Positions 12,632-34,174 of a stretch of DNA of 34,174 nt are shown one piece after another. Positions within the stretch are counted from its first letter, which is position 1. Every line of letters begins with the position of its first letter. Below the pieces are notes generated by a model. It was given only the letters and a program-made list of their open reading frames with translations, ran no database searches and was not told the origin of the DNA. The translations under genes were made by a program, and so were the position numbers. The stretch is from Gammaproteobacteria bacterium (GTDB taxonomy: Bacteria; Pseudomonadota; Gammaproteobacteria; Arenicellales; Arenicellaceae): NCBI GenBank assembly GCA_022447525.1, contig JAKVBA010000015.1, positions 1 to 34,174 of the forward strand, in the 5' to 3' direction.

Positions 12632-12675
12632 AAAAAGGCCACAGTCGTATATCAACTGTAGCCTTTTGTTTTTTT
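12632..12675 (+). terminator. Bidirectional intrinsic terminator between peroxiredoxin and rhodanese genes
   Basis: The arms AAAAGGC-C-ACAGT and ACTGT-A-GCCTTTT pair with one C/A mismatch around a 9-nt loop. They are followed by a T-rich tract ending in seven T residues (12669-12675). On the minus strand the A-run before the stem (from about 12632) gives a T tract, so it can also end the leftward fumarase-rhodanese operon, whose last stop codon is at 12691. Confidence 0.88.
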
Positions 12676-12690
12676 ATTTAATCGAACAGT

Positions 12691-13092
12691 CTACTGAACA
12701 GGATAGTCTCCTTTCACCCAAGCCTTCATACCCCCATCAAGGTGCACCAATTTCTGCACACCCGCAGATTTTAAAGTTTCTAGAGACCTAGCACTTCTTC
12801 CTCCCGATCTACAGTGCACTAAGTAAGTCTTTGAGGTGTCAAGCATGCCCACTTGCTCCTCAAAGTCCTTGGCGTAATAATCAATATTAATCGCGCCTGC
12901 GATATGCCCTTTTGAAAACTCTTTGGCAGTTCTTACATCTAAAACTTGGATAGAAGGGTTCTCCGACAAAAGTTTGTGGGCCTCCTCGGCATTTACATAG
13001 TTAATCCCATTTTGCTGCTCAGACGCGCTGATAGTTAGAGCAAAACTAGCCAGGCAAAACAACAGTGTTAATTTTAAAAATTTCATTTTCAT
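12691..13092 (-). CDS. Secreted/periplasmic single-domain rhodanese
   Basis: The 133-residue product starts with a signal peptide (MKMKFLKL, a hydrophobic stretch, and a likely cleavage after ISA). One rhodanese domain follows: VLDVRTAKEFSKGHIAGAINI, then the active loop VHCRSGGRS with the catalytic cysteine, and HLDGGMKAW at the end. Six-residue loops of this kind usually act on sulfur, while the exact persulfide donor is unknown. The frame extends to a TTG at 13122, but the ATGs at 13092 or 13086 start a clean signal peptide. It is the last gene of the leftward operon, 33 bp after the other rhodanese gene, before the bidirectional terminator. Confidence 0.87.
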   Translation of the reverse strand: MKMKFLKLTLLFCLASFALTISASEQQNGINYVNAEEAHKLLSENPSIQVLDVRTAKEFSKGHIAGAINIDYYAKDFEEQVGMLDTSKTYLVHCRSGGRSARSLETLKSAGVQKLVHLDGGMKAWVKGDYPVQ

Positions 13093-13125
13093 TACCGATT
13101 TGTAGATACTCGTAAAAACCAATCC

Positions 13126-13662
13126 TTATCTAACGATCGGTTCATAAGCAATGATAGAGGGATCGTCAAGGAGCCTACCCCAGTAGGCGTTATACGGGTG
13201 CACAGTACTGCCCTCAAAACTCAGATCAGAATTAGCCCAAGCAAATAGTCCACCTTCTAAATTGTAACTTTGGTTTATGCTCATTTGCGTCAATTCTGTC
13301 TGCACACGTGCAATAAAATCGGAAGATCGGCGCCCCACTGAACAATAAAAGATAACTGTTTTACCGCTCACAAACTTCTCAAACTCATCTTTGAAAACAT
13401 TTGGTTGCATATTAGGATCAACTCTCAAAGCACTCGCTTGTAGACGGCTAACGGCATACTCGCTAAGCTCTCGCACGTCTATGAAAACTAGGTCTTCAGA
13501 ATTCAGTCTTTTCAAATCGGTCGCGTTGATGTGCTCCACATTAGGATAATTTTCGACGATTTTCTCGTGGATTTCCTGGAGACTAGGCTGCATCTTGGTT
13601 GCCACGTAAACAACGAGTGCTGACAACCCAAAAAAGCCACCAAGGAGTAGAAATATTTTCAT
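13126..13662 (-). CDS. Membrane-anchored rhodanese-like protein
   Basis: The 178-residue protein has an N-terminal hydrophobic segment (about residues 4-22, IFLLLGGFFGLSALVVYVA) with no clear cleavage site, so it is probably tethered to the inner membrane with the rhodanese domain outside the cytoplasm. The domain shows VFIDVRELSEYAVSRL and the active loop FYCSVGRRSSDF with the catalytic cysteine. A C-terminal extension, TVHPYNAYWGRLLDD, follows the domain end (LEGGLFAWAN) and is unlike ordinary rhodaneses. It is 17 bp downstream of the membrane hydroxylase gene. The two rhodaneses in tandem share little sequence and are not a recent duplication. Confidence 0.85.
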   Translation of the reverse strand: MKIFLLLGGFFGLSALVVYVATKMQPSLQEIHEKIVENYPNVEHINATDLKRLNSEDLVFIDVRELSEYAVSRLQASALRVDPNMQPNVFKDEFEKFVSGKTVIFYCSVGRRSSDFIARVQTELTQMSINQSYNLEGGLFAWANSDLSFEGSTVHPYNAYWGRLLDDPSIIAYEPIVR

Positions 13663-13679
13663 TATCGCCCTAGTTTCGC

Positions 13680-14480
13680 TCAGTTTTTAAAGGGAAACAA
13701 TAATGCCCAAGTTAGCTTATTTGGGCTTTTATCTTGATGCGATTTTAAACCGATGGACATGTCATGATGCCCTTGATTCGGCTGATCAATGTAGGAGCCA
13801 AACAATCTGTCCCACGTGGAGAGAAAAAACCCAAAGTTACTATCCGTTTCTCTCTGAACAACAGAATGATGCACTCGATGCATATCTGGTGTCACAATCA
13901 CTCTTCTTAAAAAACGATCAAGATTCGACCCAAGTTTGACATTTGAATGGTTAAACATCGCAGACGCGTTGAGCATGACCTCAAAAATCATCACGGCCAC
14001 TGCAGAGGGGCCGATAAGAGCGATACAAACTAGTTTAAAGAACATAGACAGCACGATTTCAACCGGATGGAAACGTGCGCCAGTGGTAACATCAATATCT
14101 CGGTCAGCGTGGTGAACTCTGTGCACTCGCCACAACAATGGAATTTTATGTGACGCTACGTGCTGCCAATAAATGAGCATATCTAGCATAACGATAGCAA
14201 CGACAAATTCAATCCAAAACGGTAACTCTAAGAGATTCAACAAGCCTAAATCTCTTTCTGATACCGAGTGAGCCCAAGCGACAGCAAGTACAGGCACCAG
14301 AAGTCTCACGGCAAATGCGTCGATCACCACCAAGCCCCAGTTCGTGATCCACCTAGCTCCGCGACCCTCCACAAGCGGCCTTCGCGGAGATAATATCTCC
14401 CAAACAGCCATTATCGAAAAAACCCCCACGAAAGCCGAGAGCCGGATAGTTGCCTCGTTATTTAAAAGAAATTCAATCAT
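13680..14480 (-). CDS. Sterol desaturase / fatty acid hydroxylase-family membrane di-iron protein
   Basis: The 266-residue integral membrane protein carries the histidine clusters of the fatty-acid-hydroxylase superfamily: H107xxxH111 in YWQHVASHK, H120xxHH in RVHRVHHAD, H178 in FNHSN and H201xxHH in MHRVHHS. They bind the di-iron centre that uses O2 to hydroxylate or desaturate a lipid. The frame is open to 14669, but the ATG at 14480 starts the first hydrophobic helix and the extra upstream part is not family-like. It lies 65 bp after the four-helix membrane protein and 17 bp before the anchored rhodanese. Bacterial members act on diverse lipids, so the substrate is unknown. Confidence 0.9.
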   Translation of the reverse strand: MIEFLLNNEATIRLSAFVGVFSIMAVWEILSPRRPLVEGRGARWITNWGLVVIDAFAVRLLVPVLAVAWAHSVSERDLGLLNLLELPFWIEFVVAIVMLDMLIYWQHVASHKIPLLWRVHRVHHADRDIDVTTGARFHPVEIVLSMFFKLVCIALIGPSAVAVMIFEVMLNASAMFNHSNVKLGSNLDRFLRRVIVTPDMHRVHHSVVQRETDSNFGFFLSTWDRLFGSYIDQPNQGHHDMSIGLKSHQDKSPNKLTWALLFPFKN

Positions 14481-14545
14481 AGTTCTTGAGACCGTCGATG
14501 GAGCACTCTTATGGCAATGCAATGTCTCGTTAAACGAATTTAGCT

Positions 14546-14959
14546 CTATGCCTTCCGACGCGACTGCCACAAACCGATAGCTGTATGAGCAAGAACACCG
14601 ACAAACATTGACACCACGGCCCAAAAGGTAATTGGACGATGGATAGCGTAAACCACGGGCTCTACCCAAAACGCAACAGCGAAAAGTATAGTTGAGCCAA
14701 TGATTAAACCAGATGAAAGGTTGAAGGCAAGGTCATGCTTCCCCTTTCTGTCGCTAGTTCTGACATTCGCAGCCATCAAATTAATGAGGGCTGCAAATAA
14801 CAGATAAATATGGGAGGCTCGAAACATCATTCTCACCTCCTCTCGACCACTGTAGAGCTCCGGAAAGCTAAATATCATGTATGCACCAGTGGCAAGAAAC
14901 AAAAGCACCATAAGTATCCCTATGACTAAGTGTGCTTTATGAATATTGCTATAGAGCAA
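14546..14959 (-). CDS. Small four-helix integral membrane protein of unknown function
   Basis: The 137-residue product has about four hydrophobic segments (near residues 10-32, 50-66, 79-98 and 108-130) and a basic C-terminal tail. Histidines sit at HKAH, ASHIYL, IHRPI and AHTAIG; such a spread in helices may mean heme binding, but no established motif is visible. The start is a TTG just 2 bp beyond the fumarase stop; no ATG or GTG is available in frame before the next stop at about 14998. That spacing argues for translational coupling to fumarase. I do not recognise the family. Confidence 0.7.
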   Translation of the reverse strand: MLYSNIHKAHLVIGILMVLLFLATGAYMIFSFPELYSGREEVRMMFRASHIYLLFAALINLMAANVRTSDRKGKHDLAFNLSSGLIIGSTILFAVAFWVEPVVYAIHRPITFWAVVSMFVGVLAHTAIGLWQSRRKA

Positions 14960-14961
14960 TG

Positions 14962-16488
14962 CTACACCACTTCTACTTTGATCTTGTCTGCGATTTTAGA
15001 CTTCCATGCCGCAGGGCCAGTGGTGTGTACAGCTTCTCCATTCGTGTCTACCGCAACTGTAACCGGCATATCTTGAATTTCAAATTCATGAATAGCTTCC
15101 ATACCGAGCTCTGGAAAAGCCACCACTTTTGACGATGTAATCGCTTTTGAAACTAGGTAGGCAGCGCCACCAACAGCCATTAGATAGGCTGATTTGTATT
15201 TCGCAATCGACTCCACAGTGGCTGCGCCTCTCTCTGCCTTACCAACCATTCCCATCAAACCAGTTTGCTCGAGCATCATGTCGGTAAATTTATCCATTCT
15301 AGTCGCTGTCGTCGGACCTGCAGGGCCAACCGCTTCATCTCGCACAGCGTCGACTGGTCCAACGTAGTAAATGAATCTTCCATTAAAATCTACGCCTTCG
15401 GGCAAACCCTCTCCACTCTCAAGCAATGTTTGTATTTTCTTGTGAGCGGCATCTCTACCTGTCAGTAATTTTCCCGATAGCAATAGTGTTTCCCCTGGCT
15501 TCCACTCCAACATATCCTCTTTGGTGACTGTATCTAGATTCACTTTGCGGGTGCTTGGGCCAACATCCCAAGTGATTTCAGGCCAATCGCTTAGTTTTGG
15601 CGGAGTTTGCAATGCGGGACCACTGCCATTCAAAACAAAATGTGCATGACGAGTAGCTGCACAGTTTGGAATCATAGTAACGGGCTTTGAGGCCGCGTGC
15701 GTTGGATAGTCTTTTATTTTGACATCTAGAACTGTGGTTAGCCCGCCCAAACCTTGAGCACCTATACCCAGCTGATTCACGCTCTCGAACAGCTCAAGAC
15801 GCAACTCCTCCAATCTACTATTTGGACCACGCTTTATTAACTCGTGGATATCAATTGGTTCCATCAACACCTCTTTGGCGAGCACGGCCGATTTTTCTGC
15901 GGTGCCACCAACGCCTATACCGAGCATTCCTGGCGGGCACCAACCTGCCCCCATAGTTGGCACGGTCTTCAATACCCAATCGACCAGTGAATCACTGGGG
16001 TTAAGCATGACCATCTTTGATTTATTTTCAGAACCACCACCTTTCGCCGCAACATCAATTTCTAAGGTATCGCCCTCAACCACCTCGTAATGAATCACCG
16101 CTGGCGTATTGTCCTTGGTATTTTTGCGAGCACCAAGGGGGTCATCTAATATTGACGCCCGTAACACGTTATCCGGGTGTAAATAAGCTCGCCTGACGCC
16201 TTCATTAATCATGTCGGACAATGAAAGCTCCGCGTCCCATGTAATATCCATACCAACCTTAGCGAAAACAGTCACAATGCCGGTATCTTGGCAAATAGGC
16301 CTACGCCCTTCAGCACACATTCTCGAGTTAATTAAAATTTGCGCCATTGCGTCTTTGGCGGCTTGGGACTCCTCTCGTTGATATGCTTCATGCATCGCAT
16401 CGACGAAGTCTTTGGGGTGATAGTAAGAAATAAACTGCAACGCGTCGGCGACGCTTGCAATCACATCATCTTGTTTAATTGTGCTCAT
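14962..16488 (-). CDS. Class I (Fe-S) fumarate hydratase
   Basis: The 508-residue enzyme interconverts fumarate and L-malate in the TCA cycle. Both class I halves are present in one chain. Three cysteines fit the 4Fe-4S ligands: C66 in PICQDTG, C184 in GWCPPGMLG and C276 in PNCAATRH. Their spacing (118 and 92 residues) nearly equals that of C105, C224 and C318 in E. coli FumA. The C-terminal part has GPAGPTTATRMDKF and AVDTNGEAVHTTGPAAW. Being oxygen-sensitive, it may need protection from oxidation. It heads a leftward set with the four-helix protein, the hydroxylase and two rhodaneses. A minus-strand TATAAT at 16515-16510 is a plausible -10 box without a good -35. Confidence 0.94.
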   Translation of the reverse strand: MSTIKQDDVIASVADALQFISYYHPKDFVDAMHEAYQREESQAAKDAMAQILINSRMCAEGRRPICQDTGIVTVFAKVGMDITWDAELSLSDMINEGVRRAYLHPDNVLRASILDDPLGARKNTKDNTPAVIHYEVVEGDTLEIDVAAKGGGSENKSKMVMLNPSDSLVDWVLKTVPTMGAGWCPPGMLGIGVGGTAEKSAVLAKEVLMEPIDIHELIKRGPNSRLEELRLELFESVNQLGIGAQGLGGLTTVLDVKIKDYPTHAASKPVTMIPNCAATRHAHFVLNGSGPALQTPPKLSDWPEITWDVGPSTRKVNLDTVTKEDMLEWKPGETLLLSGKLLTGRDAAHKKIQTLLESGEGLPEGVDFNGRFIYYVGPVDAVRDEAVGPAGPTTATRMDKFTDMMLEQTGLMGMVGKAERGAATVESIAKYKSAYLMAVGGAAYLVSKAITSSKVVAFPELGMEAIHEFEIQDMPVTVAVDTNGEAVHTTGPAAWKSKIADKIKVEVV

Positions 16489-33231: not shown

Positions 33232-34174
33232 TTAGGTTATGGTGCCTTTAAAATATTCTATAGTTCTTGCTATACCCTCTCTTAGTTGAATTGATGGCTC
33301 CCAATCTAGCGCCTGTTCAGCCAAGGAGATATCTGGCCTCCTTTGTTTTGGATCATCGCTAGGTAATTCTAATAATGCGATTTCAGAGTTTGAACCTGTA
33401 ATTTTTATCACGAGTTCTGCTAATTGTTTGATAGTAAATTCAGTTGGATTTCCAATATTCATTGGACCAGTGATTTGGTCAGATGAGTTCATCAATCTGA
33501 TCATGCCTTCAATTAAGTCATCGACATAACAAAATGACCGAGTTTGGGTTCCGTCGCCATAGATCGTTATTGGATCATTTTTTAACGCCTGCACAATAAA
33601 ATTCGACACCACACGACCATCTTGCGGATGCATGCGGGGCCCATAGGTATTAAAAATACGCATGACTTTTATCCTCAGTTGGTGTTGCCGATGATAATCA
33701 AAAAAAAGAGTTTCAGCACATCGTTTTCCTTCGTCGTAACAAGAACGAACACCAATGGGATTAACGTTACCCCAATAAGTCTCTGGCTGGGGATGGACAC
33801 TTGGATCTCCATAAACTTCGCTTGTCGATGCTTGTAGAATTTTTGCGCCAACTCTCTTTGCTAATCCAAGCATATTGATAGCGCCATGCACACTTGTTTT
33901 TGTAGTCTGTACTGGATCGTGTTGATAATGGATCGGTGAGGCTGGACATGCGAGGTTATAGATCTCATCAACCTCCACATACAAAGGGAAAGTCACATCG
34001 TGACGCATCAACTCAAATCGTGGGTTACCAATCAGATGTAGAATATTATTCTTGTTACCTGTGAAATAATTATCTAAGCACAAGACCTCGTGGTTATCCT
34101 CGAGCAATCGCTCGCATAGATGTGAACCCAGAAATCCTGCCCCGCCTGTCACCAATATTTTTTTTGTTATCGAC
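33232..34174 (-). CDS. UDP-glucuronate decarboxylase (UDP-xylose synthase), cut at its N-terminus by the right edge
   Basis: The SDR enzyme decarboxylates UDP-glucuronic acid to UDP-xylose. The frame stays open to the last base ([20 protein letters not shown] from 34173 leftwards), so the start lies beyond the window. The TTG at 34155 is not the start because the Rossmann strand precedes it. Other signatures: [32 protein letters not shown], catalytic STSEVYG and Y-x3-K in [31 protein letters not shown]. The latter and the [10 protein letters not shown] segment are specific to UXS rather than UDP-glucose epimerases. It heads the leftward glycan locus within the window. Confidence 0.93.

Follow-up and report, generated by a model that had tools for sequence, protein, structure and literature searches.

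A conserved hydroxylase–rhodanese gene cassette in Arenicella and the wider association of its hydroxylase with rhodanese-domain genes

The window, that is, the whole stretch of DNA analysed here, is 34,174 nucleotides long and constitutes one contig (JAKVBA010000015.1) of a 3.6 Mb draft genome (labelled G000) of a marine bacterium from a genus whose nearest named record is Arenicella. Five genes follow one another on the minus strand between positions 16488 and 12691 with gaps of 2, 65, 17 and 33 bp, as reported in an earlier note on this DNA; the gap lengths depend on the ATG starts taken for the third gene, a hydroxylase, and the fifth, a secreted rhodanese, whose open reading frame (ORF) can be extended to position 13122 with a TTG start. 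The conserved unit is made up of the last three genes only, here called the hyd-rhoM-rhoS cassette, and the pairing of hydroxylase and rhodanese reaches far beyond this locus.

The hyd gene (13680..14480, minus strand, ATG start) encodes a 266-residue membrane hydroxylase of the FA_hydroxylase or sterol-desaturase family, and the family assignment proposed earlier stands, with a PF04116 score of 108.2 bits against a curated cut-off of 31. The motif histidines are invariant in alignments of 22 and 30 relatives. Comparison of the structural model (pLDDT, the predicted local distance difference test, 94.6) with the PDB by Foldseek gave no match at E ≤ 0.001, while in a second structural look (VIA, 59 chains) the best solved match was the yeast sphingolipid hydroxylase Scs7p (4zr1), with a middling Z of 6.5 over 180 residues. 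The likeness to Scs7p, and to OlsE (NF052566), which is the only NCBIfam match, consists in the PF04116 superfamily, the histidine motifs and the membrane hydroxylase fold. Membrane-lipid oxidation is the likely activity; for the function of relatives of this hydroxylase, no report was found in the open-licence literature.

The two genes that follow are rhodaneses, as the earlier note had it. Both rhoM (13126..13662, minus strand) and rhoS (12691..13092, minus strand) match PF00581, at 45.4 and 76.5 bits against a cut-off of 22.2, and both carry the catalytic-loop cysteine. In 16 relatives of rhoM this cysteine and the motif YCSVG are invariant; in the rhoS alignment of 11 sequences the cysteine is invariant. 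As read from the sequence, a hydrophobic anchor stands at the N-terminus of rhoM and rhoS starts with a signal-peptide-like segment, and for this reason both proteins are probably extracytoplasmic. The C-terminal HPYNAYW tail of rhoM, singled out in the earlier note as odd in the form VHPYNAYW, is not peculiar to this protein, since 16 of 16 aligned relatives keep its H, P and W. RhoM also matches most of the profile of the rhodanese subfamily NF045521, the tail included, but its score of 68.1 bits, like those of its relatives in loci L034 and L090 (81.6 and 88.5 bits), lies below the cut-off of 145. The cassette ends at a terminator-like stem-loop (12633..12667, minus strand) with a 15-pair stem and a T-rich tail, and this terminator-like site and the converging peroxiredoxin gene beyond it agree with the earlier description. 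The plus-strand fold of the stem has an energy of −11.6 kcal/mol (z −3.0); the whole stretch contains six terminator-like sites, a number close to the mean of 4.1 in shuffled sequences, but this stem is the longest. No relatives of the peroxiredoxin were found clustered in L033 or the other examined loci among L032–L087.

Upstream of the cassette lie a four-helix membrane gene (14546..14959, minus strand), whose 137-residue product matched no family above the cut-off in a Pfam search, and a gene (14962..16488, minus strand) that indeed encodes an Fe-S enzyme, namely a class I fumarase (PF05681, PF05683). We compared the locus with the 18 genomes of the genus sample, the own genome included. 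A close hydroxylase is present in six of them (G000 plus G002, G007, G010, G011 and G013, at 60–63% identity), and in 6/6 it has rhoM and rhoS behind it in the same orientation, in varying surroundings. The fumarase adjoins the cassette in two of the six genomes only (G000 and G002), and in G002 (L033) a hairpin of −28.3 kcal/mol (z −3.8) stands between fumarase and hyd; the four-helix gene lies beside the cassette in G000 alone. Because they adjoin the cassette in only 2/6 and 1/6 genomes, the fumarase and the four-helix gene look like probable passengers, and on gene order we rejected them as pathway members. The check suggested earlier, whether the four genes after the fumarase stay together, comes out positive for the last three and negative for the four-helix gene; genome comparison shows a conserved pairing for hydroxylase and rhodaneses, wider than the earlier note could show, whereas the other two genes are scattered. 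Eight other genus genomes have a hydroxylase at 43–48% identity, with no rhodanese neighbour in the five such loci examined (L066–L070), and the remaining four have distant hydroxylase paralogues only. RhoM occurs without the hydroxylase in the examined stretches of G001, G008 and G017.

To a sample of 274 gammaproteobacterial genomes the hydroxylase relatives contribute, at E ≤ 1e-50, 132 rows in 124 genomes. Ninety of the 132 rows were examined as loci (the 30 best and 60 more, taken mostly by rank), with flanks of 1.5 to about 3 kb and some contigs ending early; 88 were counted, without G000 and G007. An adjoining rhodanese gene counted as a partner, and so did a VTT/DedA or VTT-rhodanese gene and a divergent regulator of the ArsR type, in most cases an ArsR-rhodanese fusion. 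The rhodanese, VTT and ArsR assignments behind the counts were made with domain-only profiles, and those of ten example loci were checked against Pfam. Any partner was found in 47/88 loci (by family, 39/68; among loci with enough flank on both sides, 43/81). A divergent ArsR-domain gene stands upstream in 41/88, a VTT-domain gene follows on the same strand in 40/88, and 29/88 possess the full set of ArsR-rhodanese, hydroxylase and VTT-rhodanese. As read from the sequence, the rhodanese domain of the VTT-rhodanese fusion comes after an arginine-rich end of the last helix and probably lies in the cytoplasm. Within the order, a partner was present in 9/32 loci (own excluded), five of them genus cassettes. 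Among named loci (the best 80 of at least 586), 22/80 had a partner, six of these labelled Alphaproteobacteria; L254, with a VTT gene upstream on the same strand, was left out of this partner count. As controls, 24 distant-paralogue loci gave a rhodanese, VTT or ArsR-type match in 0/24, and 205.8 kb of sequence more than 3 kb from any hydroxylase contained no rhodanese domain.

In a FastTree phylogeny of 200 hydroxylases, with local support values only, all 69 rows with a regulator or VTT partner fall on one side of a branch with support 95, and the nine rhodanese-only rows, the window included, fall on the other. The window hydroxylase groups with the other cassettes, with G018 (hyd-rhodanese, L052) and with G315 (hyd-rhoM, L090), at support 89–92, and the same group holds four Sphingomonadales copies that have no rhodanese neighbour. 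Given this split, the association either persisted through an exchange of partners or arose more than once. In a metagenome-assembled genome of Robiginitomaculum (L228), two rhodaneses with 42 and 46% identity to rhoS come after hyd, and an MBL-fold gene and a BLH-phosphatase-domain gene are divergent to hyd.

The common version of the association is distinguished by its regulator and operator. The spacer between regulator and hydroxylase contains ATTCAA-N8-TTGAAT, with at most 2/12 mismatches, in 49 of 51 cases, compared with 1.04 on average and at most 3 in 50 shuffles, and in 32/51 spacers the operator directly follows a TTGACA-N16-18-TANNNT promoter. Before hydroxylases without a called regulator it occurs in 8/144, some of them cut or fragmentary loci. 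We also scanned 15 whole genomes for exact copies; 14 of these genomes have the regulator beside hyd, and the other, G301, was examined only at another hydroxylase copy (L096, no partner). The scan yielded 14 sites in 11 genomes, leaving four genomes with none, and the reversed control pattern yielded two sites. Eleven of the 14 sites (10 genomes) start 52–128 bp before the hydroxylase match, and three lie elsewhere. In an alignment of 52 regulators, cysteine reaches 30% or more at two columns only, both in the rhodanese loop CRGPxC and each at 51/52. A full-length relative of this regulator was found in none of the 18 genus genomes, and the window has neither the divergent regulator nor the operator of the ArsR-rhodanese/hydroxylase/VTT-rhodanese module. 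The Arenicella cassette forms a branch of its own, which lacks both regulator and operator and has two rhodaneses that appear to be extracytoplasmic.

Every part of these systems belongs to a known family; no description of the combination was found among the papers listed from the open-licence literature (titles and abstract starts). In its common version, the module resembles the sulfane-sulfur repressors BigR, SqrR and SoxR in having an ArsR-type regulator beside sulfur-related genes. In those repressors the two conserved sensing cysteines lie within the ArsR protein itself, according to a passage of PMC10451225, whereas the regulators of the loci related to ours have no two conserved cysteines in the ArsR domain; their well-conserved cysteines occur only in the fused rhodanese, and they have a membrane hydroxylase gene as output. 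The window differs further from the BigR, SqrR and SoxR operons in having no adjacent regulator. The VTT-rhodanese partner has the same architecture as DedA-rhodanese fusions (PF09335 and PF00581), which are already published, their relation to lipid flipping being called unclear in part of PMC10127716 and Pseudomonas aeruginosa PA1209 serving as an example in part of PMC12893004. The relevant passages of these two papers mention no hydroxylase or ArsR-rhodanese partner. Unlike the common module, Arenicella has no VTT fusion beside hyd. Another ArsR-rhodanese protein is Rv0324, for which the open-licence literature search gave no paper mentioning rhodanese.

These observations lead us to favour, tentatively, the reading that the window holds one lineage's hyd-rhoM-rhoS version of a widespread association between a diiron-type hydroxylase and rhodaneses, with sulfane sulfur (polysulfide, persulfide or thiosulfate) or a stress producing it as the signal. 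The association would then be a module for the oxidation of membrane lipids that is linked to sulfane sulfur, a connection that we infer from rhodanese chemistry, the cysteines of the regulator and a few of the neighbouring genes. In the common version, the rhodanese loop of the regulator (CRGPxC) would take up sulfur or form a disulfide and release the operator, the hydroxylase would then oxidise a membrane lipid, and the VTT-rhodanese partner would move or handle the lipid. In Arenicella, where the regulator is absent, the two probably extracytoplasmic rhodaneses may serve the hydroxylase as sulfur partners that clear or relay sulfane sulfur at the membrane. If this is true, bacteria respond to reactive sulfur by changing their membrane lipids. 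The hydroxylase–rhodanese partnership, of which distant relatives keep a similar form under a putative dedicated switch, points to a so far unrecognised connection between sulfur stress and membrane chemistry, and the rhodanese partners, the fused ArsR-rhodanese regulator and the near-exclusive operator provide a first testable context both for this hydroxylase and for DedA-rhodanese fusions.

Several observations weigh against this reading. No partner was found in 41/88 of the gammaproteobacterial loci, in 23/32 of those within the order and in 58/80 of the named loci (the best 80 of at least 586), and the operator, allowing at most two mismatches, was not found before hyd in the window or in L033–L038. 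The sulfur neighbours that speak for it are few: MBL-fold genes of persulfide-dioxygenase (Blh) type lie near the system in L228 and L270, the latter an MBL-rhodanese gene, and others of this type stand beside regulator relatives in L305 and L309. A scan for an MBL neighbour returned L228 only among the scanned loci, and the own genome gives partial matches only to the MBL protein of L228, the best being 37% over 143 residues. Among the loci scanned, the MBL persulfide dioxygenase turns up in isolated cases and not as a general neighbour. Finally, six of the seven plasmid hydroxylase copies examined lie near metal genes, not sulfur genes.

A further-reaching form of the sulfur reading is possible but doubtful, namely a self-contained regulon in which the ArsR-fused rhodanese acts as the sensor through a two-cysteine CRGPxC switch, with oxygen-dependent hydroxylation of a membrane lipid and a lipid-moving DedA-rhodanese as its output, so that the membrane would respond to sulfane sulfur, and which in Arenicella would have been rebuilt with extracytoplasmic rhodaneses.

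The metal genes near those 6/7 plasmid copies make metal stress the main rival. According to this explanation, which we consider rather unlikely, the hydroxylase, the VTT protein and the rhodaneses would shield the envelope from copper, mercury or other thiophilic metals, and the regulator would sense the metal or metal-induced thiol damage. Plasmid copies stand beside mer genes, a copper ATPase and multicopper oxidases (two copies), beside a cupredoxin and FTR1, and beside a cation diffusion facilitator and DUF411, and a regulator relative lies near heavy-metal efflux genes in Agrobacterium. However, the ArsR domain of the regulator has no conserved cysteine set, and in the chromosomal loci examined, where metal genes were uncounted, the association with rhodaneses is far more regular than that with any metal gene.

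The tight pairing of oxygenase and sulfurtransferase genes could also be taken to indicate biosynthesis, with the rhodaneses providing sulfur for a sulfur-containing lipid first oxidised by the hydroxylase. We regard this as distinctly unlikely, as the clustered genes around the cassette include no recurrent lipid synthase or acceptor and the partners vary (VTT-rhodanese, rhoM, rhoS). An OlsE-like hydroxylase acting on ornithine or glycine lipids, with the rhodanese incidental, seems improbable. OlsE is the sole NCBIfam match of hyd, and acyltransferases resembling OlsB and OlsF are encoded in the own genome, but the score, at 78.7 bits, is far below the equivalog cut-off of 475, and the OlsB domain, which at a laxer threshold also matches in Escherichia coli and is therefore not specific, does not co-occur with the hydroxylase (45 of 124 hydroxylase genomes compared with 51 of 150 others, p = 0.70). 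Since this co-occurrence is absent, an ornithine-lipid substrate was rejected. The functional unit of five genes from fumarase to secreted rhodanese put forward in the earlier note, for which the 2 and 65 bp gaps would permit cotranscription in the window genome, is already disfavoured by the gene order and by the hairpin downstream of fumarase in L033, and must be considered highly improbable.

Regarding the plasmid loci, the hydroxylase copies in L271–L276 lie among mercury or copper genes and transposases. Plasmid ArsR-rhodanese genes without a hydroxylase stand divergently beside MBL-fold and MFS genes in Rhodococcus and Acidiphilium (L305, L309) and beside an MFS gene in Phaeobacter and Agrobacterium (L308, L310).

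Relatives of the four-helix gene occur in L072, L073 and L074. The one in L074 (G007) lies among TAACAAGTTCAAAAAC...GGCGTTA repeats between short same-strand ORFs; these attC-like repeats lie within L074:1-14001 (the repeat search was made in L074 only), and the region is probably an integron array, probably chromosomal. Beside the four-helix gene of the window, considered as a candidate for a fresh integron cassette, no clear attC was seen when judged by eye. The other hydroxylase type of the genus and family adjoins a ParA/MinD-like ATPase gene in L066–L071 and L077, with an M48-peptidase-like gene also present in six of these loci, both as read from the sequence. Downstream of the cassette in G007 (L034:9627-12161) and G010 (L036:9736-12252) lie a small gene and a TonB-receptor-like gene with loops rich in His/Glu, possibly one for a metal. 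The last gene of the window (33232-34173), epimerase-like, belongs to the same cluster as the gene at L044:8684-9661, which in G038 neighbours a lone relative of rhoM; this may be chance.

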